Positions 364 through 45,687 of a stretch of DNA of 45,687 nt are shown here, one piece after another; position 1 is the stretch's first letter; the number at the start of each line of letters is the position of its first letter. The translations under genes were made by a program, and so were the position numbers. The stretch comes from Rubrivivax sp. (GTDB taxonomy: Bacteria > Pseudomonadota > Gammaproteobacteria > Burkholderiales > Burkholderiaceae_C): the NCBI GenBank assembly GCA_016788525.1, contig JAEUPD010000012.1:1-45687 (forward strand). Direction: 5' to 3'. The notes beneath the pieces were generated by a model. It was not told the origin of the DNA. It saw only the letters and a program-made list of their open reading frames with translations, and ran no database searches.

Positions 364-370
364 ACCCGCT

Positions 371-399
371 GTAACCCGGGCGGCATGGGCTGCGAATGG
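371..399 (+). promoter_or_regulatory. SigF-type ECF promoter, GTAACC-N16-CGAA
   Basis: GTAACC at 371-376 and CGAATGG at 393-399 are separated by exactly 16 bases, the spacing found at the other sites in this window. It begins 7 bases after the preceding stop codon. Start of transcription would be near 405, with the terminator at 451 only about 50 bases further on. Confidence 0.55.
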
Positions 400-450
400 T
401 GCGGCCCGCCGACCGGCCTCGAGGTCCTCTGGACGTCTCGGCAAACCTGG

Positions 451-484
451 AACGCGGCACCCTGGGCCGCGTTTCATTCTTTCG
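451..484 (+). terminator. Rho-independent terminator
   Basis: AACGCGGC (451-458) pairs perfectly with GCCGCGTT (466-473) around a 7-base loop and is followed by the T-rich tail TCATTCTTTC. It can end the transporter operon and also any transcript started at the promoter at 371. Confidence 0.7.
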
Positions 485-491
485 GCGCGCT

Positions 492-520
492 GTAACCCAT
501 CGCGCGGCAGCAGCGAAGTC
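492..520 (+). promoter_or_regulatory. SigF-type ECF promoter of the first DUF4148 gene
   Basis: GTAACC (492-497), 16 bases, CGAAGTC (514-520). The same boxes and spacing occur at 12640-12668 before the paralogous gene. In both places the first base of the -35 box is exactly 124 bases before the start codon. Confidence 0.72.
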
Positions 521-530
521 ACAGGTACAG

Positions 531-549
531 GCGATGCACGGTGCATCGC
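531..549 (+). promoter_or_regulatory. 19-bp palindrome/hairpin at the transcript 5' end
   Basis: GCGATGCAC-G-GTGCATCGC is a perfect palindrome around one central G. It starts about where transcription from the promoter at 492 should begin. The paralogous copy (12679-12697) differs by one base that would still pair as G-U in RNA, which favours an RNA hairpin over a protein operator. Confidence 0.6.
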
Positions 550-615
550 TGCAACGGACCGCAAACCGGCAAGCGCCGGCGCCTAACGGTTCAACCACCT
601 GAAAGGACCTTCGCC

Positions 616-951
616 ATGAGCAAGCTGCTCGCCGCCGCCCTGATCGCCACCGCCACGTTCGGCGCCTCGGCCCAGGAACTGCTGACCTTCAACGACAGCT
701 GGGGCACGCCGAAGTCGCGCGCCGAAGTGCGCGCAGAACTCGCCCAGGCCATCGCCAGCGGCCAGCGGCTGAACCAGGGCGAGGCGAACGTCTACCCGCT
801 GCCCGCCAGCGAGGGCCGCATGCTGATGCGCGCCGAAGTGCGTGCCGGGCTGATCGGCTGGGTGGCTCCGCATCCCGAAGCCGGCGACGCGCTGCCGCAT
901 GGCGACAACCTGGTGCGTCTCGCCCGCGCCGCCGCGTTGCCCGCCCGCTGA
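616..951 (+). CDS. DUF4148-type small secreted protein, copy 1
   Basis: This 111-residue protein starts at ATG 616 behind AAAGGACCT. Residues 1-19 form a signal peptide ending ASA, then the mature chain opens [11 protein letters not shown]. The motif RAEVRA(E/G)L occurs twice, which resembles the DUF4148 family of small exported Burkholderiales proteins of unknown function. There is no cysteine in the mature part, so it is not itself a bufferin. The copy at 12764-13108 shares a 33-residue block after the signal peptide without a single change. An upstream in-frame ATG at 541 is rejected because it lies in the palindrome and has no ribosome site. Its promoter places it in the same regulon as the bufferin operon, so a role in envelope or metal stress is inferred. 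Confidence 0.85.
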   Translation: MSKLLAAALIATATFGASAQELLTFNDSWGTPKSRAEVRAELAQAIASGQRLNQGEANVYPLPASEGRMLMRAEVRAGLIGWVAPHPEAGDALPHGDNLVRLARAAALPAR

Positions 952-997
952 GCCGCCGCGGGCCTGCCTGCCTGCGCCACCCCGCGCCGTGTGCCAC

Positions 998-1023
998 TGC
1001 GCCAGCCACGGCGCTGTGGCGCA
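998..1023. terminator. Possible bidirectional terminator stem
   Basis: TGCGCCA (998-1004) pairs with TGGCGCA (1017-1023), with further GC/GC pairing inside. It lies between the convergent genes ending at 951 and 1057. There is no T-run, so the call is weak. Confidence 0.25.
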
Positions 1024-1056
1024 GGGGCTGCGCGGACGGTGCGCGCCCCGGCGCGC

Positions 1057-2031
1057 TCAGCGCTCGGCCAGCACCAGCGTCTGCGGATGAAACGCCACCC
1101 AGGCGAACCAGTACGCCATCACCCCCGGCAAGGGCCGGCCTTCGGCATCGAAGGCCTCGGCGCTGCGGTGCGTGCGATCGAAACGGACCTCGACCCGTTG
1201 GCCGCCGATGCGGTCGGCCAGCCGTCCCTTTGCATCGACACGCCGCTCCAGCAGCGAGAACGGGTAGGCCTTGGCTTCGCCACCGACGCGCAGGCCGAGC
1301 ACCCACTCCTTCAACGGCAGCCGCGCATCGCGGTGCTGCACGTCGAACATCAGGCGCTGGATCTTCTCGTAGCCGTCGTAGGGGTCGCGCTCGTAGTCGC
1401 GCTCGAAGCCCGTGTCGGTGGAGAGCACTTCGGTGCCCGGGTGGCGCGCACGCCACGCCGCCCAGCTGGTATGGGCCAGCGGCAGCGGCACGAGCACCGC
1501 GCCCTTCAGCGGGCCGGTCACCGCCTTGGCCATGACCTGCGACCACAGCGACTCGGTGGCGCGGTCGTACAGCAGCACGTCGCTGTTGTAGAGCAGCCCC
1601 GAGACCCCGAAGCTCGCCTCGCGGGCGCCGATGCGGGCGTCGAACGCCATGCCGGTGCCGCACAACGGGCAGTAGGTGACCGCCACCGCCTGCGCACCGA
1701 AGCGGTCGTTGACGATTTCGTGCCAGTTGAGGATGCGCACCGGGTAGGCGCGCGCCACGCCGTTGAGCGCGACGCCCAGCACGCGGTCGGGGTCCTTCAG
1801 TGCCGCGCGCGCCGCCGGCACGAACTTCGGCCGGTCGATGGCGGGGATGCCGTCGCGCGGCGGCCCGCCGCGCTCGATCGCCTGCACCGGCACCAACGCG
1901 TCGCGCAGATCGAAGCCGTTGAGCGCGTGTCCCTGCGCCTGCGCCGGCCCCGGCACCAGCAAGGAAGCCGCGAACGTGCCGGCGCCACCCGCGGGCAACG
2001 CCAGGGCAGCGAGGATTCGACGTCGTTTCAT
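1057..2031 (-). CDS. DUF3179 domain-containing exported protein
   Basis: This 324-residue protein begins with a charged signal peptide (MKRRR, hydrophobic stretch, cut near AQA at about 33). The body matches DUF3179: FDLRDALVPVQAIERGG, YPVRILNWHEIVND, then the family hallmark TYCPLCGTGMAFDAR with two conserved cysteines, and SGLLYNSDVLLYDR. The function of DUF3179 is not known; its C-P-L-C motif suggests metal or redox chemistry outside the cytoplasm. Its ATG overlaps the stop of the upstream gene (ATGA at 2028-2031), so the two are translated together. Confidence in the family is high, in any function low. Confidence 0.88.
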   Translation of the reverse strand: MKRRRILAALALPAGGAGTFAASLLVPGPAQAQGHALNGFDLRDALVPVQAIERGGPPRDGIPAIDRPKFVPAARAALKDPDRVLGVALNGVARAYPVRILNWHEIVNDRFGAQAVAVTYCPLCGTGMAFDARIGAREASFGVSGLLYNSDVLLYDRATESLWSQVMAKAVTGPLKGAVLVPLPLAHTSWAAWRARHPGTEVLSTDTGFERDYERDPYDGYEKIQRLMFDVQHRDARLPLKEWVLGLRVGGEAKAYPFSLLERRVDAKGRLADRIGGQRVEVRFDRTHRSAEAFDAEGRPLPGVMAYWFAWVAFHPQTLVLAER

Positions 2032-2912
2032 GTGCGGTGCTCCTGGCGGTCGGGCCGGTCGGCCCAGGTCAAGGCATGGTGGTCGAAGCCGCCGGCCAGC
2101 GTCGGCTTGACGACCTCGAAATACGGCGAGACGTCGAAGTCCCGCGGCACGAACAGGCTCGAGTGGCGCACGTGCAGGATCTCGTGCACGCAGGCGCTGC
2201 AGGCCGGGTCATCGCCCATCCGTTGCTCGATGCGCGGCAGGATCGGGTAGCGCACGGACTGGAACGCCTCGGCCACCAGCGTGGAGCAGATCGCGCGCGT
2301 GGGGTCGCCGCTGCCCAGCGCGATGAGCCGCCGCCGCCAGCGCGCTGGCACCGGCGGCATCGGCAGCAGCCAGCGCACGAGGTCGAAGATGTGCTTGAGG
2401 TCGTAGCGGTGCCCCAGGCGCGCGACCGCGTGCGCGATCACCGCATCGGCTTCCGCCGGGGTCAGGCTCACGGCGCGGCAGATGCGCACGTGCAGGCCGG
2501 CAAAGGCGTCCAGGCCGACGGCGCGCACGCCCTCCACCACGTCGGCCTCGACAAAGCAGGCGGGTGGGCGCGCGGCGCACTCGGTGGCCTCAGCGCGGCG
2601 ATGCAGCGCATCGCCGACGTACAACGCGGCATGTGACCAGGTGGACTGCGTCAAGTACTTGATGCCGGTGGAGAAGCGGCTCACGCCCTCGACCAGCAGC
2701 ACGTCCGCCGGCCGCAGGCACGCCGCCAGCCGGTCGGGGTCGGCGGGCGCCCCGCCTGCGGCGCCCTTCGCACGCCCGGCCAGGTGGCGGGCCAGCCGGG
2801 CACCGAGGCCCAGGTGGCTGGGCGGTGGCGCCGCAGGCGGTGGCGAAGTGGCCGGCGGCCGCGCGCTGGCTACCGGATCGGGCCCCGGCTGAAGGGCGTG
2901 CAGGTGGGTCAT
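2028..2912 (-). CDS. YiiX/YebB-like permuted papain-fold hydrolase
   Basis: The 294-residue product carries the signature of the permuted NlpC/P60 papain-like group (YaeF/YiiX, peptidase family C92). The catalytic His is in STWSHAALYVGD after the opening LRPADVLLVEG, and the catalytic Cys is in TRAICSTLVAEAFQ. Enzymes of this fold cleave amide or ester bonds in lipid or cell-wall substrates; the substrate here is unknown. The start at ATG 2912 gives MTHLHALQ; the frame stays open to 3002 and would add a CPSC-containing leader, but that runs through the candidate promoter at 2922-2950. Residues 15-45 are a proline-rich linker. It is the first gene of a two-gene operon with the DUF3179 gene. 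Confidence 0.75.
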   Translation of the reverse strand: MTHLHALQPGPDPVASARPPATSPPPAAPPPSHLGLGARLARHLAGRAKGAAGGAPADPDRLAACLRPADVLLVEGVSRFSTGIKYLTQSTWSHAALYVGDALHRRAEATECAARPPACFVEADVVEGVRAVGLDAFAGLHVRICRAVSLTPAEADAVIAHAVARLGHRYDLKHIFDLVRWLLPMPPVPARWRRRLIALGSGDPTRAICSTLVAEAFQSVRYPILPRIEQRMGDDPACSACVHEILHVRHSSLFVPRDFDVSPYFEVVKPTLAGGFDHHALTWADRPDRQEHRT

Positions 2913-2921
2913 CTCGCTGAT

Positions 2922-2950
2922 GAGGTCGCCGCACGACGGGCACAGGTTAC
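2922..2950 (-). promoter_or_regulatory. Possible SigF-type promoter, one mismatch
   Basis: On the minus strand GTAACC (2950-2945) is followed after exactly 16 bases by CGACCTC (2928-2922). The last base of the CGAA core is changed. The start codon follows only 10 bases later, so a transcript would be almost leaderless. Confidence 0.35.
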
Positions 2951-3059
2951 AAGGCGGGCGAGGGCGCGCAAGAATCGACCTGCTTGCCGCGACCGATGAC
3001 ATGGCTCACACGCCATCCCGGCGGCCCTTTTCGGGGAAACCCGTCCCCGCAACCGCGGT

Positions 3060-3088
3060 GTAACCCAACTGCAAGAAGCGACGAAATC
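3060..3088 (+). promoter_or_regulatory. SigF-type ECF promoter before the sigma gene
   Basis: GTAACC (3060-3065), 16 bases, CGAAATC (3082-3088). It lies directly ahead of the ECF sigma gene and is the expected site for autoregulation. Confidence 0.7.
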
Positions 3089-3091
3089 GCC

Positions 3092-3643
3092 TTGGACGCC
3101 AGCCAGAACGACTTCGAATCCGGCTTGAAGCCGATGTGGCTGCGCGCCCAGTCGGGTGACGAGGCGGCCTACCGGGCCTGCCTGGAGCGCATCGCCACCC
3201 GGCTGCGCGGCTATCTGCGCCGCCGCATGTTCAACCAGCCGGACGACGTGGAAGACCTCGTGCAGGAGACCCTGCTCGCGCTGCACCTGCAGCGCGGCAC
3301 CTACGACCCCTCGCTGCCGGTCAGCGCCTGGGTGCTGGCGATCGCTCGCCACAAGCTCGTCGACCTGTGGCGCCGCCGCGGCCGCCGCGACGACCTGCAC
3401 GACGCCATCGACGACGTCGACGAGCAGTTGCTGGTCGCGAACGCCGAAGAAGGCGGCACGCAGCGCGACCTGGAAAAGCTGCTGGGTGAGCTGCCCGAAG
3501 CGCAGCGCCAGGCCATCGTGCTGACCAAGGTCGAAGGCCTGTCCGTGGCCGAGGCCTCGGCGCGCACCGGCGTGTCGGAATCGGCCATCAAGGTGCAGGT
3601 GCACCGCGGGCTGAAGAAGCTGGCCGACCTGGTGCGGCGGTGA
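3092..3643 (+). CDS. sigF: ECF sigma factor, SigF type
   Basis: About 183 residues with both sigma-70 parts and no extra domain. Region 2 runs over residues 15-80 (GDEAAYRACL, DDVEDLVQETLLALH, WVLAIARHKLVDLWRR). Region 4 lies near the end (LPEAQRQAIVLTKVEGLSV, then the helix-turn-helix AIKVQVHRGLKKL). It should direct RNA polymerase to the GTAAC-N16-CGAA promoters in this window. The next gene encodes an NrsF-type anti-sigma factor, the pairing known for Caulobacter SigF. The start is uncertain: TTG 3092 keeps the first helix (ESGLKPMWLRAQ) but sits on the expected transcription start; TTG 3125 and ATG 3134 are alternatives that would shorten region 2. There is no clear ribosome site for any of them. 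Confidence 0.85.
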   Translation: MDASQNDFESGLKPMWLRAQSGDEAAYRACLERIATRLRGYLRRRMFNQPDDVEDLVQETLLALHLQRGTYDPSLPVSAWVLAIARHKLVDLWRRRGRRDDLHDAIDDVDEQLLVANAEEGGTQRDLEKLLGELPEAQRQAIVLTKVEGLSVAEASARTGVSESAIKVQVHRGLKKLADLVRR

Positions 3644-3750
3644 CGGTCGCGACACCGCCGCAAGAGACCTCCGAGAAAGACACCGCCGCGCAGACACCGC
3701 GACGACCCGCCGCCCCGAGCCCACCCCGAACCCCCGTTGCCTGCCCGACG

Positions 3751-4386
3751 ATGAAGACCGACTCGCTGATCGAACTGCTGGCGCGTGAAGCCGGCCCCGC
3801 GCCCACCGCCGCCGTCGAGCGCCGCGTGTGGCCGCCGGCACTGCTGGGCCTGGCCGTCAGCGCCGCGGCGGGACTCCTCGTCCTTGGCCTCGTGCCGCAA
3901 TCGGTCATGTTGCAGGGTGCCTGGTGGATCAAGTTCGGCTACACCGTCGCGCTGGTGGCCGTGGGCGGTTGGCTCGTGGTGCGGCTGGCGCGGCCGGTGC
4001 AGCGGCTGGTCTGGCCGCAGGCGGTGTTGATGGGCGTGCTGGCCCTGATCGGGGCGCTGGGCCTGTGGCAATGGTTCTCGGCCATGCCCGATCGGCGCGT
4101 GGTCGACCTGTTCGGCCAGACCTGGAGCCAATGCCCGCGCAACGTGCTGTTGTTGGCCATCCCGCCGATGGCCGCGGCCTTCTGGGCCCTGCGTGGCCTG
4201 GCGCCTACGCGGCCCGCGCTGGCCGGGGCAGCGGCGGGGCTCTTCGCCGGCGCGCTGGGCGCGGCGGCCTATGCGCTGTCGTGCCCGGAGATCGCGTTCA
4301 GCTTCATTGCCGTGTGGTACACGCTGGGCATGGCGCTGACCACCGCCTTGGGTGCGTTGCTGGGGCCCTGGCTGCTGCGCTGGTAG
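3751..4386 (+). CDS. nrsF: NrsF-type (DUF1109) membrane anti-sigma factor
   Basis: A 211-residue inner-membrane protein with six hydrophobic segments (about 28-48, 60-80, 89-110, 131-150, 156-176, 181-208). The N-terminus MKTDSLIELLAREA is the usual cytoplasmic start of DUF1109 proteins. Two cysteines, C128 (SQCPRN) and C178 (LSCPE), lie at the ends of membrane segments; from memory they correspond to the periplasmic pair needed for heavy-metal sensing in Caulobacter NrsF. It should hold the sigma factor of the preceding gene at the membrane until metal or thiol stress acts on these cysteines. A GTG at 3640 overlapping the sigma stop could start the frame, but the added 37 residues are proline-rich and not family-like, so ATG 3751 is preferred. 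Confidence 0.85.
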   Translation: MKTDSLIELLAREAGPAPTAAVERRVWPPALLGLAVSAAAGLLVLGLVPQSVMLQGAWWIKFGYTVALVAVGGWLVVRLARPVQRLVWPQAVLMGVLALIGALGLWQWFSAMPDRRVVDLFGQTWSQCPRNVLLLAIPPMAAAFWALRGLAPTRPALAGAAAGLFAGALGAAAYALSCPEIAFSFIAVWYTLGMALTTALGALLGPWLLRW

Positions 4387-4467
4387 GCCGAAGGCGCGGC
4401 GGCCGCCGGCGCCGAAGCGCGCGCACGCAGCGCCCGCCGCGCGCCTGCGAAAGCGCGCATCAGCGAA

Positions 4468-4962
4468 TCAGCGCGTCACGGTCGCCTCGGCGATGGCGGC
4501 CAGCGCCTTGCGCACGTTCTCCGCCGGCGGGCAATCGCCGCCGCCATGGCGATGCACGAGCCACACCGGGTCGTTGTAGCCCAGCCAGACCTGGCCGGTC
4601 GCATCCGTCCACACCAGCGCCTTCATCGGCAGGTCGATGCCCACGCCCTGCGCGCACTGCATCAGCGGCGTGCCGGCCTGTGGGTTGCCGAAGATCATCA
4701 CCTCGGTGGGCCGCAGCGTCTGGCCGATGCGCTGGGCCGCCGCCGCGTGATCGACGCGCGCCAGCACATTCAGGTTGCGCTGGCGAACCTGGGCTTCGAG
4801 GCGGCTCGCGGTGTCGGCCTGGCTGTGCGGGCTCTTCACGGCCACCAGGCCGTGCGAGCCGGCCATGCCGCCGTGGTGGCGCCCCATCGCACCGCAGCCG
4901 GCCAGCAGGGTCAGGGCGGCCAATGCCGACAGCGCGGCGCCGCGCCTCTGAAATGTGCTCAT
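4468..4962 (-). CDS. DUF302 domain lipoprotein
   Basis: 164 residues. A lipobox LLAGC with C23 marks it as a lipoprotein. A His/Gly/Met-rich patch follows (GRHHGGMAGSHG), which could touch metal. The rest is a DUF302 domain: LEAQVRQRNLNVLARVDH, TEVMIFGNPQAGTPLM, GIDLPMKALVWTD, VWLGYNDPVWL. DUF302 proteins are small periplasmic or membrane-attached proteins of unknown function, often found near metal-handling genes. It follows the radical SAM gene by 93 bases on the same strand and probably shares its SigF-type promoter. Confidence 0.82.
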   Translation of the reverse strand: MSTFQRRGAALSALAALTLLAGCGAMGRHHGGMAGSHGLVAVKSPHSQADTASRLEAQVRQRNLNVLARVDHAAAAQRIGQTLRPTEVMIFGNPQAGTPLMQCAQGVGIDLPMKALVWTDATGQVWLGYNDPVWLVHRHGGGDCPPAENVRKALAAIAEATVTR

Positions 4963-5055
4963 CTCGGGTTCTCCTGTCTTTGCTTCTGAGGCTCAATGGC
5001 AGCAGCACGCTGCCTGGGGCCCGCATGGCAAGCGCCGGCGGGAATGGCGGGGAGG

Positions 5056-6060
5056 TTACGCGACCACTGCGGCAGCGGGCTGCCCGGGCGCGCCGGCATC
5101 GGCGAGCGCGCCGCCACAGCTGCTGCCCTGCCCGGCCGTGCAACCATAGCAGTGGTCGGCGCAGCGGATCTCGCTGCCGGCGGGGTCGTGCTTCAGCAGG
5201 TCGCGCAGATGCGGCCGCGGCTGGCCGGTCAGCCGGGCGCGCAGGCCGAGCATCTGGTTGAAGTCGCAGTCGTGCAGCCCGCCTTGCCAGCCGACACTGA
5301 GCAGGCTGCGGCACATCACGGTGTCGAGGTTCTCGTCACGGTAGGCGTCGCGCAGCAGCTTCATGTAGGCCGTGAACGTGCCCTGGCTGACCAGCGTGCT
5401 GCCGAAACGCTGGATGGGCATGTTGGTCAACGCGAACAGGCGGTTGAAGCGGATGCCGAAGAGCCGCTGCAGCTCGCGCTTGTAGTCGGCTTCCAGCGGG
5501 CCCTGCGCCGGCGGCAGCGCGGCGCCTTGCGGGTTGTAGACGAGGTTGAGAACGAGGCCGCCGGTCGCGGCGCCGTAGCCCAGCGCATTGAGCTGGCGCA
5601 GCCCGGCAATGCTGCGCTCGAAGACGCCGGAGCCGCGCTGGCGGTCGACATTCGCCGGCGAGTAGCAAGGCAGCGAGGCGGTCACCTCCACCCGCTGCGC
5701 CGCGAGGAACGCGGCCAGGTCTTCCTGGCCCGGCTCGCCGAGGACGGTGAGGTTGCAGCGGTCGATGACATGCACCCCCATGGCGCGGGCACCGGCCACC
5801 AGCGCGCGGAAGTGCGGGTTGAGCTCGGGCGCGCCGCCGGTCAGGTCCAGCGTCGGTACGCGCCTGGCGCGCAGCACCTCCAGCACCAGCGCCGCCGTGG
5901 CGGCATCCATCATCTCGGTGCGATTCGGCCCGGCTCCCACGTGGCAATGCAGGCAACTCTGGTTGCACCGGTAGCCCAGGTTGACCTGCAGCGTCTCCAG
6001 TCGCCGCCGGCGGATCGGCGGAAAGTCGGTGGCGGCGAGCAACGCGAGGGTGTCGTGCAT
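5056..6060 (-). CDS. arsS: ArsS-like radical SAM enzyme (DUF3641 C-terminus)
   Basis: 334 residues. The radical SAM cluster motif C32-x3-C36-x2-C39 lies in GYRCNQSCLHCHV; LDLTGGAPELNPHF is the glycine-rich SAM-binding strand. The C-terminal half (LVLNLVYNPQGAALP, NRLFALTNMPI, LLSVGWQGGLHDCDFNQML) is the DUF3641 part of the arsenosugar-biosynthesis family ArsS, ending with a cysteine group (CADHCYGCTAGQGSSC) for a second cluster or substrate. ArsS adds a deoxyadenosyl group to methylated arsenic made by ArsM; no arsM is in this window, so the substrate may differ. The gene is divergent from the bufferin operon, and both face a shared region with SigF-type promoters. Confidence 0.85.
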   Translation of the reverse strand: MHDTLALLAATDFPPIRRRRLETLQVNLGYRCNQSCLHCHVGAGPNRTEMMDAATAALVLEVLRARRVPTLDLTGGAPELNPHFRALVAGARAMGVHVIDRCNLTVLGEPGQEDLAAFLAAQRVEVTASLPCYSPANVDRQRGSGVFERSIAGLRQLNALGYGAATGGLVLNLVYNPQGAALPPAQGPLEADYKRELQRLFGIRFNRLFALTNMPIQRFGSTLVSQGTFTAYMKLLRDAYRDENLDTVMCRSLLSVGWQGGLHDCDFNQMLGLRARLTGQPRPHLRDLLKHDPAGSEIRCADHCYGCTAGQGSSCGGALADAGAPGQPAAAVVA

Positions 6061-6109
6061 GCGGATGAAGGTGCGGTGGCGGCGCCGATGCAGCGCAAGG
6101 CTACTGATG

Positions 6110-6138
6110 CGATTCGCCCGGGCCTGCGCGAGGGTTAC
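6110..6138 (-). promoter_or_regulatory. SigF-type ECF promoter of the radical SAM gene
   Basis: On the minus strand GTAACC (6138-6133), 16 bases, CGAATC (6116-6111). It lies about 50 bases ahead of the start codon at 6060 and is divergent from the promoter at 6176; the two -35 boxes are 37 bases apart. Confidence 0.7.
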
Positions 6139-6175
6139 AGGACCCGGGGCCCGTGGAAACCCTGAACGCCCGGAT

Positions 6176-6204
6176 GTAACGCCGGGCGCGGCGGAGGCGA
6201 ATGA
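6176..6204 (+). promoter_or_regulatory. SigF-type ECF promoter of the bufferin operon
   Basis: GTAACG (6176-6181), 16 bases, CGAATGA (6198-6204). The leader to the bufA start codon is about 90 bases. Confidence 0.68.
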
Positions 6205-6301
6205 CGTTCAGGCGCCACGCTGTGCTGCCGCGGGGTGACACGCCCGGCGGCGGCGCGCGCGGCGCCCCCGTCGCCCACGCTGCAAGATTGGAGAGATCCG
6301 C

Positions 6302-6610
6302 ATGTCCCAGACTCGCCCCACCACCGCCCAGACGGCCTCGCTCGCACTGGCCATCGGCGCCGCCCTGGCGCTGGCGCAAGCGCCCGCGCACGCCCAGCCC
6401 GCCGACAAGGAGAAGTGCTTCGGCGTGGCCCTCAAGGGCAAGAACGACTGCGCCGCCGGCCCCGGCACCACTTGCGCCGGCACCAGCACGCGCGACTTCC
6501 AGGGCAACGCCTGGAAGCTGGTGGCCAAGGGCACCTGCGAGAAGACGGCCAGCAAGACCTCGCCCACCGGCAATGGCCAGCTCAAGGAATTCAAGGAGAA
6601 GAAGGCCTGA
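6302..6610 (+). CDS. bufA: Bufferin precursor BufA (DUF2282)
   Basis: 102 residues with a Sec signal peptide cut near AHA-Q (about residue 31). The mature part has four cysteines (C39 in EKCFGV, C50 in KNDCAA, C58 in TTCAGT, C79 in GTCEKT), the pattern of DUF2282 bufferins. Bufferins are exported ribosomally made peptides whose cysteines are altered by an MNIO enzyme so that they bind copper or other metals in the periplasm (established for related systems). The next gene is that enzyme. ATG 6302 follows GGAGAG with normal spacing. The lysine-rich C-terminus (EFKEKKA) is typical. This is the first gene of the operon bufA-bufB-bufC-doxX under the SigF-type promoter at 6176. Confidence 0.88.
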
Positions 6611-6626
6611 TCGCCAGGCGCTGCGC

Positions 6627-6659
6627 GCGGCGTTCGATCGACTCTTCGAACAACGCCGC
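6627..6659 (+). promoter_or_regulatory. Intercistronic hairpin between bufA and bufB
   Basis: GCGGCGTT (6627-6634) pairs with AACGCCGC (6652-6659); the inner CGA/TCG pairs extend it past a three-base bulge. It has no T-run. It may protect the bufA message or reduce read-through into bufB, giving more precursor than enzyme. Confidence 0.4.
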
Positions 6660-6710
6660 GCCACTTGCGCCCTCGGCCCGCCTTCGTGCCGATTCCGGAC
6701 CCGCGCGCCC

Positions 6711-7619
6711 ATGAACCCGCCCCCGCCCGCCCTGCTTTGCGGCGTTGGGCTCAAGCCGATGCACGTGGCTGAGCTGCTCGCGCCGCGGCGTGAAGGCCCC
6801 TGCGCCCGAGGCAGCGCCATCGCTGCCGCGGGCGCGGCCCCGTTCTTCGAAGTGCACGCCGAGAACTACCTGGTCGAAGGCGGTCCGATGCTGCGCCACC
6901 TGCAGCGCGTGCGCGAGCGCTGGCCGCTGTCGATCCACGGGGTCGGGCTGTCGATCGGTGGCGACGGTCCGCTCGATCAGCGGCACCTGGCGCGGCTGGC
7001 CGACCTGCTCGACCGCTTCCAGCCGCGCTGGTTCAGCGAACACCTGGCGTGGTCGAGCCATGGCGGGCACTGGTTCAACGACCTGCTGCCGCTGCCCTAC
7101 GACCTGCCCACGCTGCATCGCGTGTGCGACCACATCGACCAGGCGCAGGAGCGCCTGCGCCGGCGCCTGCTGCTGGAGAACCCCAGCACCTACGTCACGT
7201 TCGCCGCCTCGACCACCGACGAGGGCGCTTTCCTGTCCGAGGTGGTGCGCCGCACCGGCTGCGGCTTGCTGCTGGACGTGAACAACGCCTATGTCAGCGC
7301 AATGAACCACGGGCTCGACGCCTGGGCACTGATCGAGGCCCTGCCCGCCACGGCGGTGGGCGAGATCCACCTCGCGGGCCATGCCGTGGATCGCGACGCG
7401 GCGGGCGACCCGCTGCTGATCGACGACCACGGCTCGGAAGTGCCGGCCGCCGTCTGGGCGCTCTACGCCCGCACCATCGAACGGCTGGGCCCGGTGCCCA
7501 CGTTGATCGAGCGCGACAACGACGTGCCGCCGCTGGTGCGCCTGGAAGCCGAAGCGGCGCTGGCCGCCGCCGTGCAGCGCGCCCGCGGCGCCCCGCCCTT
7601 GGCCGCGGCCGCGGCCTGA
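6711..7619 (+). CDS. bufB: MNIO-family bufferin-modifying enzyme BufB (DUF692)
   Basis: 302 residues forming a TIM-barrel of the multinuclear non-heme iron oxidative enzyme family (MNIO, DUF692). Conserved pieces include FFEVHAENYLVEGGP (45-59), LSIHGVGLSIG with H76, WFSEHLAWS (E110, H111), LLENPSTY with E156, LLLDVNNAYVSA with D189, EIHLAGH (H220, H224), IDDHGSEVP with H240, and LIERDNDVP with E267. These His/Glu/Asp residues are the expected iron ligands. It should convert cysteines of the BufA peptide into sulfur heterocycles in the cytoplasm before export. A small extra loop (about 23-42) is present compared with common relatives. ATG 6711 lies 100 bases after bufA; no strong ribosome site is seen. 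Confidence 0.9.
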   Translation: MNPPPPALLCGVGLKPMHVAELLAPRREGPCARGSAIAAAGAAPFFEVHAENYLVEGGPMLRHLQRVRERWPLSIHGVGLSIGGDGPLDQRHLARLADLLDRFQPRWFSEHLAWSSHGGHWFNDLLPLPYDLPTLHRVCDHIDQAQERLRRRLLLENPSTYVTFAASTTDEGAFLSEVVRRTGCGLLLDVNNAYVSAMNHGLDAWALIEALPATAVGEIHLAGHAVDRDAAGDPLLIDDHGSEVPAAVWALYARTIERLGPVPTLIERDNDVPPLVRLEAEAALAAAVQRARGAPPLAAAAA

Positions 7620-7659
7620 ACACCCCAGACCCGACCACCCCCGCAGCGAAGGAAACCGC

Positions 7660-8535
7660 GTGCGCCCCGCCATGCCCACTCAGCGTGCCTTCGCCGCCGC
7701 GTTGCTCGACCCCGCCGCGCCGGTGCCCGCCGGACTCACGGCATGGAACGGCTCTGACGTGCGCCAGCGCTTCGCGGTCTATCGCAACAACGTCGTCACT
7801 TCGCTGCTGGGCGTGCTGCGCGACACCTTCCCCGTCGTGCGCGAACTGGTGGGCGACGAGTTCTTCTCGGCGATGGGGCGCCTGTACCTGTGCGACCACC
7901 CGCCGCGCTCGCCAGTGATGAGCGAGTTCGGCGCGTCGTTTGCGGCCTGGGTGGCGGACTTCGAGCCCGCCACCGCGCTGCCCTACCTGGCCGAGGTGGC
8001 GCAACTGGAGTTCGCGCGGCTTTGCTCGCTGCACGCCGCCGACGCGCCCGGCATCGCCCCTGCCGAGCTGGCCGCCGCGCTGGCCGACCCGCACGCTTTG
8101 GCGGCCACCGTGCTGACGCTGCACCCATCGGCCCAGGTGCTGCGTTTCGATCACGCCGCGGTGTCGATGTGGCACGCCCATCAGCTCGCCGAAGCGGCGC
8201 GCGACGCCGCGCTGGCAGCCGTGGACGTGCACGCCGCCGAATCGGCGCTGGTGCTGCGCGGGCCCGACGACGAAGTGCTCGTCGTGCCGCTGGTGCCGGC
8301 CGACGCCGGGCTGCTGGACGCCTTGCGCTGCGGCCAGCCGCTGGGCGCCGCGGCCGCCTGCCACCCCGGCGCCGACCTGACCCGCGTGGTCGCCGCGCTG
8401 CTGCAACGCCGCGCAGTGGTCGATCTGCGGGCGGGCAACGCCATGTTCGCGAGCGGCGGCATGCCCCGCGACGCCGCCAACGGCACCCACCCCGGCGCCG
8501 TCGCGAGCCGCCTCCCCCCGCGGGTCTCGCCCTGA
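7660..8535 (+). CDS. bufC: Bufferin partner protein BufC (DUF2063)
   Basis: 291 residues. The N-terminal DUF2063 domain is clear: TQRAFAAALLDP, RFAVYRNNVVTSLLGVLRD, FPVVRELVGDEFF, then AAWVADFEPATALPYLAEVA. BufC-type proteins pair with MNIO enzymes and are thought to recognise the precursor's leader and present it to BufB; the older database name 'putative DNA-binding' is misleading. GTG 7660 lies 8 bases after GAAGGA and is preferred to ATG 7672. The gene begins 40 bases after bufB and precedes the DoxX gene. The last 20 residues are low in complexity. Confidence 0.85.
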   Translation: MRPAMPTQRAFAAALLDPAAPVPAGLTAWNGSDVRQRFAVYRNNVVTSLLGVLRDTFPVVRELVGDEFFSAMGRLYLCDHPPRSPVMSEFGASFAAWVADFEPATALPYLAEVAQLEFARLCSLHAADAPGIAPAELAAALADPHALAATVLTLHPSAQVLRFDHAAVSMWHAHQLAEAARDAALAAVDVHAAESALVLRGPDDEVLVVPLVPADAGLLDALRCGQPLGAAAACHPGADLTRVVAALLQRRAVVDLRAGNAMFASGGMPRDAANGTHPGAVASRLPPRVSP

Positions 8536-8568
8536 CCCGCTACCGACCGCCACCACCGCCCTCGCACC

Positions 8569-9108
8569 ATGAATCACCCCGCCGCCTCCGCTTCCTCCCA
8601 CCCGCTGGCGCCGGTCGACGGCCACCACGGCTTGCCGGCGCTGCTGCGGCGCGCCGCCCGCTGGATGTCGTCGATGCCGCACTCGCTGATCGCACTCACC
8701 GGGCGCTTCTCTGTCGCGGCGGTGTTCTGGAACTCGGGCCAGACCAAGATCGAGGGGCTGGCCATCAACCTGGTCAGCGGCACTTTCGAGCTGGGCGTGC
8801 CGAGGCTGGCGTCGTCGGCCGTCGATCTCTTTCGCGACGAGTACAAGCTGCCGCTGCTGCCGCCCGAGCTCGGCGCGGTGCTGGCAGCGGCCGGCGAGCA
8901 TGTGCTGCCCTTGCTGCTGCTGCTGGGCCTGGGCACGCGCTTCGCGGCGCTGGGGCTGCTGGGCATGACGGCCGTCATCCAGTTCCTCGTCTACCCTGGC
9001 GCCTACGCCACGCACGGCGTGTGGGCCGCGGTGCTGCTGTGGCTGATGGCGCGCGGCCCGGGGGTGGTGTCGCTCGACCACTTGATCGCCAGGCGCTTCG
9101 CTGACTAG
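8569..9108 (+). CDS. DoxX-family membrane protein of the bufferin operon
   Basis: 179 residues with four predicted membrane segments (about 45-65, 100-118, 120-140, 148-170). Typical DoxX features are ALTGRFSVAAVFWNSGQTKIEG, AAAGEHVLPLLLLLGLGTRFAAL and AVIQFLVYPGAYATHGVW. DoxX proteins often end bufferin gene clusters; the supposed role is in membrane redox or quinone chemistry, but it is not settled. The gene begins 33 bases after bufC on the same strand and is probably the last gene of that operon, since 91 bases separate it from the next gene. Confidence 0.85.
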   Translation: MNHPAASASSHPLAPVDGHHGLPALLRRAARWMSSMPHSLIALTGRFSVAAVFWNSGQTKIEGLAINLVSGTFELGVPRLASSAVDLFRDEYKLPLLPPELGAVLAAAGEHVLPLLLLLGLGTRFAALGLLGMTAVIQFLVYPGAYATHGVWAAVLLWLMARGPGVVSLDHLIARRFAD

Positions 9109-9199
9109 GCATCTGGGTGGCAGGGGCAGCGCAGGTGCTGGCGAAAGCGCGCGTGCGCCCGCGTGATACTGCGCACCCCCCACAACCGCCGAGGCCGGC

Positions 9200-10579
9200 A
9201 TGAATGCAGACCCGTTCGATGTCATCGTCGTCGGCGCGGGCCAGGCCGGCCCCGCCATCGCCGCACGCTGCAGCCGAGAGGGGCTGCGCACCGCCATCAT
9301 CGAACGCGGCGCGTTCGGCGGCACCTGCGTCAACGTCGGGTGCGTGCCCACCAAGACATGGGTCGCCAGCGCCCGCGCGATGCACCTGGCGCGGCGCGGC
9401 GCCGAGTTCGGCTTCGACGCCGCGCCGCTGCGTGTGGACATGGCGCGCGTGAAGGCGCGCAAGGACGCCATCGTCGCCGCCTCGCGCGAGGGCGTCGAGG
9501 CCTGGATGCGCAGCCTGAAACACACCGAGGTGCTGGTGGGCGAGGCGCACTTCGTCGCGCCACGCACGCTGCAGGTGGGCACGCGCCGGCTGACGGCGCC
9601 GCGCATCGTGCTCAACCTCGGCGGGCGTGCCGCGCCGCCGCCGCTGCCGGGGCTGGATGCGGTGCCGACGCTGGACAACGTGTCGGTGCTGCAGCTGGAC
9701 CGCGTGCCCGAGCACCTGGTCATCGTCGGCGGCAGCTACATCGGCCTGGAGTTCGCGCAGGTGATGCGCCGCTTTGGCGCCGAGGTGACGGTGGTGGAAC
9801 GCTCGGCGCAGCTGCTGCCGCGCGAAGACGAAGACGTGTCGGCCGAAGTACGCGCCTTGCTCGAGGCCGAGGGTGTGCGCTTCGCGCTCGGCTCCGAGTG
9901 CATCGCGCTGGCCCGCGAGGGCGCGCAGATCGCCGTCGGCGCGGCTTGCGGCGACGAGCGGCCGCGCGTCGTCGGCAGCCACGTGCTGCTGGCCACCGGC
10001 CGGCAGCCCAACACCGAAGGCATCGGCCTGGCCGAGGCGGGCATCCGCACCGACGCGCGCGGCTACATCACCGTGGACGACCGCTGCGCCACCAGCGCCG
10101 AAGGCGTGTGGGCGGTGGGCGACTGCAACGGCCGCGGCGCCTTCACCCACACGTCGTGGAACGACCACGAGGTGCTGCTCGGCCGCTGGTTTGGCGACGA
10201 TGCGCGCACGCTCGCCCACCGCATCGCCTGCTACGCGCTGTTCATCGACCCGCCGCTGGCGCGCGTCGGCATGAACGAGGCGCAGGCGCGCGCTGCCGGC
10301 CGGCCGCTGTTGCGCGCCAAGATGCCGATGCGGCGCGTGGGCCGTGCGCGCGAGGCCGGCGAGACGCAGGGTTTCATGAAGGTGCTGGTCGACGCCGAGA
10401 GCCGCCGCCTCGTGGGCGCCACGTTGCTGGGCATGAGCGCCGACGAAGTGGTGCACGCGCTGCTGGACATCATGGCCGCGGGCCAGCCGGTGACCACCAT
10501 CGAACGCACGATGCACATCCATCCCACCGTGTCGGAGCTCGTGCCCACGCTGCTGCAGCAACTGCGGCCCTGGCCCTGA
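9200..10579 (+). CDS. Class I FAD/NAD(P) disulfide oxidoreductase, MerA-like
   Basis: 459 residues. The FAD-binding motif VGAGQAGPAIAARC is at the start, and the redox-active disulfide C43-x4-C48 lies in GGTCVNVGCVPTK. The second nucleotide-binding motif is VIVGGSYIGLEFAQ, then VWAVGDCNGRGAFTHTSWND, and the dimerisation end has the catalytic His-Glu pair in HIHPTVSELVP. This is the layout of mercuric reductase and lipoamide dehydrogenase. MerA's N-terminal metal domain and C-terminal Cys pair are absent, so mercury reduction is not supported; a thiol or metal reductase role fits the neighbours. It lies 91 bases behind the doxX gene and could be reached by read-through from the bufferin promoter. 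Confidence 0.85.
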   Translation: MNADPFDVIVVGAGQAGPAIAARCSREGLRTAIIERGAFGGTCVNVGCVPTKTWVASARAMHLARRGAEFGFDAAPLRVDMARVKARKDAIVAASREGVEAWMRSLKHTEVLVGEAHFVAPRTLQVGTRRLTAPRIVLNLGGRAAPPPLPGLDAVPTLDNVSVLQLDRVPEHLVIVGGSYIGLEFAQVMRRFGAEVTVVERSAQLLPREDEDVSAEVRALLEAEGVRFALGSECIALAREGAQIAVGAACGDERPRVVGSHVLLATGRQPNTEGIGLAEAGIRTDARGYITVDDRCATSAEGVWAVGDCNGRGAFTHTSWNDHEVLLGRWFGDDARTLAHRIACYALFIDPPLARVGMNEAQARAAGRPLLRAKMPMRRVGRAREAGETQGFMKVLVDAESRRLVGATLLGMSADEVVHALLDIMAAGQPVTTIERTMHIHPTVSELVPTLLQQLRPWP

Positions 10580-10595
10580 ATCTTTCGGCACCGGT

Positions 10596-10624
10596 GTAAC
10601 GCGCCGGGCGCCGCGAGCGAACTC
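10596..10624 (+). promoter_or_regulatory. SigF-type ECF promoter before the second sigma gene
   Basis: GTAACG (10596-10601), 16 bases, CGAACTC (10618-10624). It leads to the ECF gene starting at 10699 with a leader of about 70 bases, implying a sigma cascade. Confidence 0.62.
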
Positions 10625-10698
10625 GCGAGTGTGGCGAAGCCTTGCGCTTCGCCCGAACTCTCGGCCGCCGCGCGCGGCGCCGAACGGGAGGCCGCGAA

Positions 10699-11292
10699 AT
10701 GAACGAGCCCGCACCGCCCCACGCCGCGATCTCCGCCGTTGAGCTGGAAGTGCTGCGCCGGCGCCTGCTGCGCCAGGCCCGGTTTGCCCTCGGGGACGCA
10801 GCCGCCGCCGAGGACCTTGTGCAGGACACCTTGCTCGACGTGCTGCAAGGCGCGCACCGGCACCGCGGCGAATCCACGCTCACCACCTGGGCTTGCGCGA
10901 TCCTCAAGCACAAGATCGCCGACTGGTACCGCGCGCCGGCACGGCGCGTGATGGTGGCGGCCAGCGGCGACGACACGGCGCCCTTGCCCGCCGCGCTCGA
11001 TGCGGGCGTCGACGAAAACGGCGCCTGGCAACCCTCGGTGCCGGCCTGGGAACAACCCGAGCAGCACGAAGAACGCCGCCAGCTCCTGCATCAACTGCAG
11101 GCGTGCGTGGCCTGCCTGCCCACGCGCATCGGCCGCGTGTTCATGCTGCGCGAGTGGCTGGGCTTCGAGAACGCCGAGATCTCGCGGCGGCTGGATCTCA
11201 GCGCCGACAACGTGCGCCAGATCCTGCACCGCGCGCGCCTGAGTCTGCGCGGCTGCATGCAGGGCCTGGCGCGGCCGCGCGGCGGCCGCTGA
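10699..11292 (+). CDS. Second ECF sigma factor, without adjacent anti-sigma
   Basis: 197 residues from ATG 10699, with GGGAGG 8 bases ahead. Region 2: FALGDAAAAEDLVQDTLLDV and TLTTWACAILKHKIADWYR. Region 4: FMLREWLGFENAEISRRL and the helix-turn-helix SADNVRQILHRARLSLRGC. The middle (about 85-130) is a loose acidic insert (DDTAPLPAALDAGVDENGAWQP). The best match by pattern is the sigma group found in betaproteobacteria next to a small zinc-finger anti-sigma gene; here the next gene is a convergent porin only 24 bases away, so no such partner is present. Its own SigF-type promoter suggests it is controlled by amount rather than by a bound inhibitor. Confidence 0.85.
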   Translation: MNEPAPPHAAISAVELEVLRRRLLRQARFALGDAAAAEDLVQDTLLDVLQGAHRHRGESTLTTWACAILKHKIADWYRAPARRVMVAASGDDTAPLPAALDAGVDENGAWQPSVPAWEQPEQHEERRQLLHQLQACVACLPTRIGRVFMLREWLGFENAEISRRLDLSADNVRQILHRARLSLRGCMQGLARPRGGR

Positions 11293-11316
11293 CCGATTGG
11301 CGCGAGCCAAACTCGT

Positions 11317-12408
11317 TCAGAACTTCAGCCGCATTCCCGCCATCACGAAGTTCACCGCATCGAAGGCCGTGCCAGCCCGGTCCAGCTTGTGCTGCTTGGC
11401 CCCGGCGTACAGGTCGAGCCACTTCGCCGCGGTGTAGTTGTAGCCCACGCCCACGACATCGGCGCGGTCGCCGGCCAGCGCGAAGTCCTGGCCGCGGCCG
11501 ACGTCGACCGACACGGCATGGTTGCCGACGATGTAGCCGAGCTTGAGGTAGCCAAACTCCTTGCGCACCAGCGCCGGGTTGTCGTCTTCGCTGACGCCCA
11601 GCGCCAGCGTGACGTTGAAGCCGTTGGCGGCGCGCCACGACAGCGATCCGCCCAGTGTGTCTTCATTGCCGCTGGCCCCGCCGCGGCGTTCGCGCGAGAA
11701 GCCCAGCGTGGCGGCCACGCGGCCGCCGGCCAGCGGCGAATCGGCCGACACCGCAGCCTCGTGGACGTCGTTGTTGCCCTTGGTGCCGAAGCTGACCGCG
11801 GCACTCAGGGGGCCCCACTTCGGCGTGTCGTAGCGGATGCGGTCGTAGCGGCTCTCGAAGTCGAGGTTGCCGATGGTCGCGCCGATCGTCGGCCCGACCA
11901 CCGCGCCGCTGCGCAAGGCGAAGCCGGCGCCGATGTCGGTAACGCCCGAGTAGTTGATGACCGTGGTGCCTGACAGGTCCACCTCCATGCCGCCGTTGGC
12001 GGCGCCGTCGCCCTGGCCGAAGCTCGCCTTGCCCCAGGGCCCCAGCAAGAAGACCTCGGCGTGGCGCTCGTTGAAGGTGGCGTCGACACTGCGCGTGGTC
12101 ATGCTGATGCTGCTCGACGGATTGGAGGTGTAGCCCACCTCCCAGTTGATGCCGGCGCGCAGGCCGGGCTGCACCTCGTGGGTGCCGGTGAAACGAAAGC
12201 GCGTCTGCGAGTTCACGTTGTCGGCGTGGAACAGACGGTTCTGCGTGCCGTCGTCGACCTGCACCAGCAGCCGGTTGACGTGGCCTGACAGCTTGTATTC
12301 GAACGCGCGCGCCGGCGTGGCCGCGATGGCCAGCAGCAACGTGGCCGCGCTCAGCGCGACGAAAGTCGGCGCCGCCTGCAAGGCGATGGCAATGCGTGGT
12401 TCTCTCAT
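11317..12408 (-). CDS. Outer-membrane porin, Gram-negative type
   Basis: 363 residues starting at ATG 12408. The signal peptide ends near ARA-F (about 37). The mature chain is rich in alternating beta-strand pattern: FEYKLSGHVNRLLVQVDDG, QTRFRFTGTHEVQPGLRAGINWEVGY, FLLGPWGKASFGQGDGA, and it ends in MAGMRLKF, a C-terminal Phe recognised by the BAM assembly machine. GPWGKASFGQGDGAANGG is the usual turn in betaproteobacterial porins. It should form a trimeric diffusion pore. The upstream in-frame starts to 12522 would add a basic, non-signal leader and are rejected. Confidence 0.82.
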   Translation of the reverse strand: MREPRIAIALQAAPTFVALSAATLLLAIAATPARAFEYKLSGHVNRLLVQVDDGTQNRLFHADNVNSQTRFRFTGTHEVQPGLRAGINWEVGYTSNPSSSISMTTRSVDATFNERHAEVFLLGPWGKASFGQGDGAANGGMEVDLSGTTVINYSGVTDIGAGFALRSGAVVGPTIGATIGNLDFESRYDRIRYDTPKWGPLSAAVSFGTKGNNDVHEAAVSADSPLAGGRVAATLGFSRERRGGASGNEDTLGGSLSWRAANGFNVTLALGVSEDDNPALVRKEFGYLKLGYIVGNHAVSVDVGRGQDFALAGDRADVVGVGYNYTAAKWLDLYAGAKQHKLDRAGTAFDAVNFVMAGMRLKF

Positions 12409-12639
12409 GATGGCCCTTCCGATGAGGTGGTGATGCGCCACTCGATGGACGCCTGCGATCGCGTGCCGCCGGCGGCAGCACGCCCGCGGCCTCTGTCTTT
12501 GCGGCACGCGGCGGCGTGACATCGACGACGGCGCAACCGCCGGGTGTCACGGCCGAGCGCGGCGGCGCGACCAATGCTCCAGCGCGCGCGCGTGGCCCAG
12601 CGCCCAAGCGCGACGCGCACGCGATGACGCAAGCAGCGC
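12409..12639. other. Gap between porin start and the second DUF4148 promoter
   Basis: This is the quiet part of a 355-base gap. The porin promoter must lie here on the minus strand but I cannot pick convincing boxes. I see no second GTAAC-N16-CGAA site, unlike the tandem arrangement at 371 and 492. Confidence 0.4.
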
Positions 12640-12668
12640 GTAACCTTTTTCGCGGCGCTCGCGAAGTC
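12640..12668 (+). promoter_or_regulatory. SigF-type ECF promoter of the second DUF4148 gene
   Basis: GTAACC (12640-12645), 16 bases, CGAAGTC (12662-12668); both boxes equal those at 492-520. Distance to the start codon is 124 bases, as in copy 1. Confidence 0.72.
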
Positions 12669-12678
12669 ACTTCCGTAG

Positions 12679-12697
12679 GCGATGCACGGTGCGTCGC
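12679..12697 (+). promoter_or_regulatory. Near-palindrome/hairpin, second copy
   Basis: GCGATGCAC-G-GTGCGTCGC: same place relative to its promoter as 531-549. The single change (A to G in the right arm) turns a U-A pair into a U-G pair in RNA. The bases GCAACGGACCG follow in both copies. Confidence 0.55.
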
Positions 12698-12763
12698 CGC
12701 AACGGACCGGATCGCGGCGCTGCGCCGCTGAGCCACGGTCCACTCGATGCAAAGGACCTCGTC

Positions 12764-13108
12764 GTGAACAAACTCCTCCTCTCCGCCGCCTCTGCTGTTC
12801 TCGCCGCCGCCTCTTTCGGTGCCTCCGCGCAAGAGCTGCTCACCTTCAACGACAGCTGGGGCACGCCGAAGTCGCGCGCCGAGGTGCGCGCCGAGCTCGC
12901 GCAGGCCATCGCCAGCGGCCAGCGCCTCGCGCAGGGCGAAGCGGGCAACTACCCCCTGCCCGCCACCGAGGGCCGCATGCTCAGTCGCGCCGAGGTGCGC
13001 GCAGGGCTGGTGGGCTTTGTCGCGCCGCACCCCGAGGCCGGCGACGCGCTGCCCGGCGCCGCGCCGGGTGTGCGCCTGGCACGGGCGGGCACGTTGGCCG
13101 CGCGCTGA
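12764..13108 (+). CDS. DUF4148-type small secreted protein, copy 2
   Basis: 114 residues from GTG 12764 behind AAAGGACCT. The signal peptide is cut after ASA (about 22). The block [11 protein letters not shown] through ASGQRL is identical to copy 1 at 616-951, and RAEVRA(E/G)L again occurs twice. Differences gather in the signal peptide and the C-terminal tail. With promoter, hairpin, ribosome site and spacing all conserved, this is a duplication of the whole transcription unit, now 12 kb apart. Function unknown. Confidence 0.85.
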
Positions 13109-13251
13109 ACGGTCGCGGCGGGCGCGGCGCCTCCGGACAGGGGCCCGCGCCCTCGCGTGCAGAATGCCGGGCGCGCCGGTCTTTGCGCCGGCCGCCGCCA
13201 CGGGCATCGATCGGACGGTGCCACGGACGCCGCAAGTCGGAGGGCTGCGCT

Positions 13252-13950: not shown

Positions 13951-14042
13951 GCGGCGCGCGAGTGCGGCGCGCGCGCGCGCAAGGCTAGATTCACGGCCTC
14001 GGGCCGACGCAACCCGACCCCAGCCGCCCATCGGAGATCCAC

Positions 14043-14684: not shown

Positions 14685-14761
14685 CGCGCCGGGGCTGCGC
14701 TGCCGCGCAGCCAAGTGCCCGAGCCTGCGGCTGCGGCGTGGCGGCCGCTCGCCGCGGGCGC

Positions 14762-43729: not shown

Positions 43730-45687
<1,958 letters not shown>

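Follow-up and report, generated by a model that had tools for sequence, protein, structure and literature searches.

The stretch analysed here (the window) is a 45,687-nt contig (C27) of a 4.43-Mb draft genome of Rubrivivax sp., which comprises 268 contigs and is 73 % complete. Near its start lies a gene for a SigF-like extracytoplasmic function (ECF) sigma factor, followed by the gene for an NrsF anti-sigma factor and surrounded by a bufferin operon, genes for an ArsS-type enzyme and a DUF302 protein, a C92 and DUF3179 gene pair, two DUF4148 genes and a second ECF sigma gene (ECF2). Eight matches to a single promoter-like motif are distributed among these genes (Table 1). The bufferin operon has the complete composition of a Buf1 operon, namely a DUF2282 precursor, an MNIO maturase, a DUF2063 partner and DoxX, and the FAD disulfide oxidoreductase gene is probably its last member. 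The DUF3179 gene is likely to form one operon with the C92 gene.

Table 1. Predicted genes, SigF-type promoters and leader hairpins of the window
Feature	Position	Strand	Evidence
SigF-type promoter, weakest, 245 nt before DUF4148a	371..396	+	exact motif; score 11.0
SigF-type promoter of DUF4148a	492..517	+	exact motif; score 26.3, best in the window
Possible 5'-leader hairpin, DUF4148a mRNA	530..550	+	conserved with copy b
DUF4148 small protein, signal-like N-terminus, copy a	616..951	+	PF13663 E 7.2e-11
DUF3179 protein, overlaps C92 stop	1057..2031	-	PF11376 E 1.3e-94
C92 (YaeF/YiiX) permuted papain-like protein	2028..2912	-	PF05708 E 4.1e-6, 27.4 bits vs cut-off 27; start inferred
SigF-type promoter before C92-DUF3179, CGAC variant	2925..2950	-	score 19.7, third in the window
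SigF-type autoregulatory promoter	3060..3085	+	exact motif 74 nt before sigF
SigF-like ECF sigma factor	3134..3643	+	Sigma70 r2/r4; 63-81% identity to 14 NrsF-linked sigmas of relatives
NrsF anti-sigma factor, Cys128 and Cys178	3751..4386	+	PF06532 E 4.7e-56
DUF302 lipoprotein-like protein, 93 nt after ArsS, no own site	4468..4962	-	PF03625 E 3.1e-21
ArsS-type radical SAM enzyme	5056..6060	-	TIGR04167 445.7 bits, cut-off 300
SigF-type promoter of ArsS-DUF302	6113..6138	-	exact motif; site conserved before close ArsS homologues
SigF-type promoter of bufferin operon	6176..6201	+	exact motif; score 12.9
bufA, Buf1 (DUF2282) bufferin precursor	6302..6610	+	PF10048 E 4.3e-23
bufB, MNIO bufferin maturase	6711..7619	+	NF050167 357.7 bits, cut-off 310
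bufC, DUF2063/HvfC-like partner	7660..8535	+	PF09836 E 1.6e-26
DoxX-family membrane protein, bufferin operon	8569..9108	+	PF07681 E 3.1e-16
FAD-dependent disulfide oxidoreductase, CVNVGC motif	9200..10579	+	NF004992 689.1 bits, cut-off 629; CVNVGC read directly
SigF-type promoter of second ECF sigma	10596..10621	+	exact motif; score 17.0
Second ECF sigma, TIGR02943 family	10699..11292	+	TIGR02943 164.8 bits, cut-off 162.2
SigF-type promoter of DUF4148b	12640..12665	+	exact motif; score 16.2
Possible 5'-leader hairpin, DUF4148b mRNA	12678..12698	+	conserved with copy a
DUF4148 small protein, signal-like N-terminus, copy b	12764..13108	+	PF13663 E 2.9e-11

The frequency of the motif was determined using an exact form, GTAAC[CG]-N16-CGAA, a relaxed form, (C/T)GTAAC(C/G)-N16-CG(A/T)(A/C), and the reversed pattern as control. 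All eight sites listed in a first-pass annotation of this DNA were recovered, seven of them exact (371, 492, 3060, 6138 on the minus strand, 6176, 10596 and 12640) and one, 2950 on the minus strand, with CGAC in place of CGAA. The same annotation had proposed a whole-genome search, in which all seven exact matches (7/7) fell between window positions 371 and 12665, compared with 12 genome-wide matches for the reversed pattern. The relaxed motif gave 11 matches genome-wide, eight in the window and three elsewhere, and its control 44. With up to one mismatch the window contained 10 matches against 1.50 expected, a number reached in 0 of 100 shuffles; the two beyond the listed eight (1676 on the plus strand and 43992-44017 on the minus strand) scored not above 4 with the promoter matrix described below. 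Since the background was 1.79 exact matches per genome in the 38 same-genus genomes without NrsF, the Poisson probability of seven exact sites in 12.3 kb is approximately 1e-20. The absence of exact matches outside the window (0 against 1.79 expected, probability ~0.17) is not claimed as depletion.

Some properties ascribed to the motif by the first-pass annotation were found to need qualification. Its description as strict is accurate for the seven exact window sites, but orthologous promoters in relatives also use other -10 boxes, with CGAA, CGAC or CGTA before close ArsS homologues. Likewise, the placement of all sites in non-coding DNA or at gene starts is only partly correct, as the site at 2950 on the minus strand is 38 nt before the inferred C92 start at 2912 but within a longer open reading frame (ORF) beginning at 3002.

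The excess of sites is linked to the presence of NrsF. Among 60 genus genomes, exact sites averaged 3.9 in the 22 with NrsF (own genome included) versus 1.8 in the 38 without (Mann-Whitney p 1e-4); the control pattern averaged 6.5 and 7.2 respectively (p 0.55). Across the 82 SigF loci taken from named genomes and plasmids, matches to the motif numbered 101, versus 11 for the reversed pattern, with no site in 24 loci, one in 19, two in 35 and three in 4. The maximum per 12.3 kb was three, compared with seven in the window, although these loci vary from 3 to 20 kb and a shorter length lowers the possible count. A SigF-NrsF pair with an exact site was also present on a contig labelled as a Klebsiella pneumoniae metagenome-assembled genome (L173), a label that looks doubtful. 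The locus of Zwartia panacis (L110), a cultured relative with both NrsF and ArsS, contains two exact sites. In a pattern-free dyad count over 18 upstream regions, the 5+4 pair shared most often was GTAAC-16-GCGA (6/18); with the other three word sizes the pair was tied, lower or absent.

To score the sites individually, a promoter matrix was trained on 50 SigF promoters of other organisms, with twelve Rubrivivax or related loci barred. The matrix placed the eight sites at ranks 1-8 in the window, with scores from 26.3 to 11.0 and the next best match at 6.9. Position relative to the sigma gene was conserved as well: GTAAC-N17-CGAA was present within 250 nt upstream of the sigma gene in 56 of 81 SigF loci, in most of them with its 5' end 73-74 nt ahead of the sigma start, and the distance of 74 nt in the window falls within this modal range.

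The window has the features of ECF16/SigF-NrsF systems, with a sigma gene followed by NrsF (DUF1109), two cysteines in the anti-sigma factor and (T/C)GTAAC-N17-CGAA before the sigma gene and the putative targets. The ECF16 consensus has been given as (T/C)GTAAC-N17-CGAA (PMC8315932), and in Caulobacter the same motif serves SigF at sigF, at msrPQ and at two bufferin operons (PMC3511200, PMC8224329), which bears out the GTAACC-N16-CGAA motif and bufferin control given in the first-pass annotation. The role of the NrsF cysteines has been published for Caulobacter (PMC3511200). In the window NrsF the counterparts of Caulobacter C131/C181 are C128 and C178, both invariant in 7/7 aligned NrsF proteins; its Pfam score was 190 bits against a cut-off of 26.8, and that for NF042994 'AntiSigF_NrsF' was 137.1, below the cut-off of 300. 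Because the motif equals the published ECF16/SigF promoter and NrsF retains both sensor cysteines, the SigF/NrsF-type reading of the first-pass annotation is supported. The putative assignment of the sigma factor to ECF16 is made by its NrsF partner and the motif; the named models nearest to it were generic sigma models.

Taken together, the locus is very probably a single-locus regulon under a SigF-type (ECF16) sigma factor that the membrane protein NrsF keeps inactive. In the proposed mechanism, envelope metal or oxidant stress would be sensed through the two NrsF cysteines, with release of SigF; inducers in studied relatives are copper, chromate, cadmium or hypochlorite. SigF-RNA polymerase would then start at (T/C)GTAAC(C/G)-N16-CGA(A/C) sites. 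The predicted targets are sigF-nrsF, the bufferin operon with the FAD disulfide oxidoreductase, ArsS-DUF302, C92-DUF3179, the two DUF4148 genes and the second ECF sigma gene, and each product may have a protective role.

Among the added targets, ArsS was assessed on 29 of 33 matches, leaving out one fragment and three without a locus. For close homologues (≥74 % identity, n=22), a site with 0-1 mismatch was located 58-93 nt upstream in 11/11 NrsF-bearing genomes (one copy each, own included), compared with 0/3 second copies and 1/8 NrsF-less genomes. By sequence the enzyme belongs to the ArsS family; no ArsM was found among the window proteins scanned, to which the search for ArsM was confined. 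Several ArsS relatives contain one in-frame TGA (e.g. G011:C4:124016-125035), which fits the selenoprotein form named in TIGR04167.

Several observations weigh against SigF control of the full set. ArsS genes below 70 % identity had a site in 0/7 cases, three of them in NrsF-bearing genomes. The C92 site was present in 3/14 genes, those of relatives G011 (two exact) and G050 (CGAC) and of the own genome (14 of 17 matches counted, three partial ones left out). For DUF302, an own exact site was found in one of nine genes, that of G011 (9 of 12 matches counted, three at ≤33 % identity left out), so that SigF reaches this gene only if it is co-transcribed with ArsS. The ECF2 site was present in 3/6 close relatives, namely G011 (exact), G050 (CGAC) and the own genome, and the DUF4148 pair represents, judging from the sequences, one duplication seen only in this genome. 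Since the matrix training sites were chosen with the same core pattern, the matrix owes nothing to the window but does depend on that pattern. At the level of the sigma locus, 25 of 81 SigF loci had no such site within 250 nt upstream, and the locus of R. gelatinosus DSM 1709 (L117) had none in 20 kb. The regulon may also be incomplete because the genome is 73 % complete and the window starts at a contig end, and the regulation of the window genes by SigF is inferred from sequence. As for the targets that the first-pass annotation had added, the ArsS-like enzyme is upheld by the recurrence of its site in related genomes, and the second ECF sigma by an exact site that recurs in two relatives. 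The DUF302 lipoprotein is not upheld as a target with a site of its own in the window, and the DUF4148 proteins are upheld in part, both having exact sites but deriving from one duplication in the own genome.

That duplication leads to the alternative that survives best: the chances appear evenly divided as to whether the sites at 371, 492 and 12640 are three independent promoters or whether the duplication copied one functional promoter, with 371 a chance match or a decaying copy. The two DUF4148 genes share 80 % identity, and their sole other match in the 60 genus genomes is 41 % identical, while site 371 has the lowest matrix score of the eight, only 11.0, a level that random windows reach ~0.18 times each. 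Against this, conservation between the copies covers the -35, -10 and hairpin blocks while the spacer and flanks have diverged, the pattern that selection to keep a promoter would leave.

The conserved block following the -10 box is 33 nt long, with 31/33 positions identical, and folds into a 9-bp hairpin with a 3-nt loop. Both substitutions within the hairpins retain pairing (U-A to U-G and G-U to G-C). Hairpin z-scores were -1.9 and -2.8 for 42-nt pieces and -0.9 and -1.0 for whole leaders, and two copies are too few to prove an RNA structure. The hairpin core of copy a is also a palindrome as DNA. A short upstream ORF with its start within the hairpin is a disfavoured reading, since its frame ends differently in the two copies. 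In the search for leader relatives, the plasmid matches were all short and weak, and viral contigs contained none that was exact; no DUF4148 homologue was found in plasmids at E 1e-3, and no Rfam family reached its cut-off in window positions 1-15000. In 399 family genomes, the own genome was the sole match among the matches listed (≤11 candidates scored per genome).

For the second sigma gene, 30 of 32 matches were used (two had no locus), nine genes being in the count of sites across related genomes and 24 in the distant count, with three in both. A zinc-finger anti-sigma gene directly follows ECF2 in G050, G052, G036 and G011 copy b (PF13490 for G050, the others by similarity). No zf-HC2 anti-sigma relative was found in the window, to which that search was confined (best E 0.35). 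In G011 copy a, ECF2 heads an ECF2-SigF-NrsF run with one exact promoter. Because zf-HC2 is not beside the window ECF2 and because of this single-promoter run, a second sigma tier driven by SigF is plausible from the gene arrangement. The idea that G011 copy a had lost its anti-sigma factor altogether was dropped, as a stand-alone zf-HC2-like ORF lies ~1.5 kb away. We would suggest tentatively, and as somewhat the less probable case, that SigF/NrsF took over a second sigma system, that NrsF as one membrane sensor runs a two-tier cascade and that the DUF4148 hairpins add an RNA-level step. TIGR02943 sigma genes were found near DUF3179 and DUF4148 genes in G050 and one G011 copy. The G011 grouping (L087, 13535-15807), which brings together a DUF3179 gene, a DUF4148 gene and a TIGR02943-like sigma that has a zinc-finger anti-sigma, hints at an ancestral regulon of the second sigma. 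A further ECF2-like sigma of the own genome (G000:C259:3135-3686, L215) is 41 % identical and has no SigF-type site within 260 nt upstream.

It is improbable that this second sigma factor, instead of or alongside SigF, reads some or all of the sites, even though it lies in the same island, its own gene has a site and it is the first gene of the G011 copy a run. The motif recurs before SigF in the majority of loci noted above, and 0/82 loci have an ECF2 match other than SigF itself. Moreover, 0/24 distant ECF2-like genes of the genus have a same-strand site (0-1 mismatch) within 260 nt upstream, and of the four close copies accompanied by a zf-HC2 gene of their own, only that of G050 has a site, the CGAC variant, the other three having none. 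A promoter motif for the second sigma was sought by dyad counts in 18 upstream regions, but these brought up the SigF motif together with GC-rich noise, and a lead with CACACC failed to align. Chance or a compositional artefact is a negligible explanation of the site cluster: background matches exist, among them a 26-base match present in identical form in at least seven genomes of the genus (G049:C147, G023:C29, G039:C2, G007:C61, G031:C8, G041:C1, G037:C38), but the Poisson value given above stands against it, and we take it as refuted by the conservation across species of distance to sigma and gene linkage. Our guess is that the recurrent match is a background one in a conserved gene such as rRNA.

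Outside the window, the CGAC variant at C36:4512 in the own genome (L302) is 77 nt before a gene for a fusion of a VTT domain, which we take to be TVP38/TMEM64-like, with an FAD disulfide oxidoreductase. A gene of this kind follows ArsS in several relatives (L092, L093, L094, L097, L293) and lies behind exact sites in G002 and G006. The other two relaxed sites look like chance or doubtful ones: that on C98 is within a LacI-like reading frame and that on C258 precedes a CoA-transferase-like gene (both named from translation). In NrsF-bearing relatives, 17 exact sites away from NrsF were hand-chosen among the matches listed, and 10 of them precede plausible stress genes (MsrP 3, MsrB 2, catalase-like 2, VTT/FAD oxidoreductase 2, EgtD 1); the remaining seven comprised one sulfotransferase-like gene, one PhaC, four without a convincing gene and one long ORF outside the scan. 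The genus regulon thus looks, from the genes so placed, like an envelope oxidant and metal defence. Exact sites before MsrB, catalase-like, MsrP and EgtD genes were seen at L065, L066, L070, L071, L072, L073, L078 and L079. The own genome stands out within the genus in that, of its nine likely promoters, eight lie together in 12 kb.

The motif, the sigma/anti-sigma pair and the bufferin targets are already known, and the known SigF targets present in the window are sigF-nrsF and the bufferin operon. In mostly open-access literature, no report was found that connects SigF with ArsS, DUF302, DUF4148 or a second ECF sigma (C92 and DUF3179 were outside the search). Bufferins are recently described copper-binding peptides, and co-targets of their sigma factor are little known outside Caulobacter. 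Candidate new members, each with a conserved promoter, are ArsS with its VTT/FAD oxidoreductase partner, C92-DUF3179 and the second sigma.

Among the closest studied systems is that of Caulobacter crescentus, which shares GTAACC-N16-CGAA, the paired NrsF cysteines, DUF2282-DUF692-DUF2063-DoxX operons and a motif before sigF. There, copper induces the SigF regulon and a sigF mutant is copper-sensitive (PMC8224329). Unlike the window, the direct targets listed in the available text exclude ArsS, DUF302, C92-DUF3179, DUF4148 and a second sigma, and sigF reportedly shows no strong autoregulation under metal stress (PMC3511200, PMC8224329). Conversely, msrPQ is a Caulobacter target, and in the own genome none of the 11 relaxed sites was seen to precede msrP. 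Brucella BcrS/AbcS (ECF16) shares the consensus and an NrsF-family anti-sigma factor with two cysteines but differs in its main targets, an MXKDX protein and MsrPQ, and in being hypochlorite-induced; the available text does not mention a bufferin island (PMC8315932). The response envisaged by the first-pass annotation as larger than described is so for direct targets in the published systems compared, while 36 differentially expressed genes are given for Brucella BcrS (PMC8315932). In Sinorhizobium, reporter fusions to the ECF16 sigma RpoE7 and one target were unresponsive to peroxide, cadmium and chromate (PMC6180224), so the inducer there may be a different one.

Cupriavidus metallidurans gigPABT/rpoQ-rsqA resembles the window in that its bufferin operon diverges from genes for a SigF-like sigma and an NrsF-like anti-sigma, and no gig promoter was identified there (PMC10304878). 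In strain CH34 (L305), exact GTAACC-N16-CGAA sites preceded by T were found in both directions between gig and rpoQ, at 4727 on the minus strand and 4762 on the plus strand, the gene names being assigned by homology and arrangement in a record without annotation. This locus is unlike the window in that the 10.5 kb read showed nothing matching ArsS, DUF302, C92, DUF4148 or a separate second ECF sigma. A divergent exact pair before the sigma gene also occurs in C. campinensis (L306) and Cupriavidus sp. EM10 (L186), with no bufferin match in the stretch read. Sigma and NrsF genes are likewise reported for Buf1 bufferin clusters, in which additional conserved genes occur in extremely low proportions and ArsS, DUF302 and DUF4148 are unnamed in the main text as available (PMC12452194). 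Compared with these systems, the regulon of the window is of a known kind, expanded and unusually clustered, with eight look-alike sites within ~12 kb.

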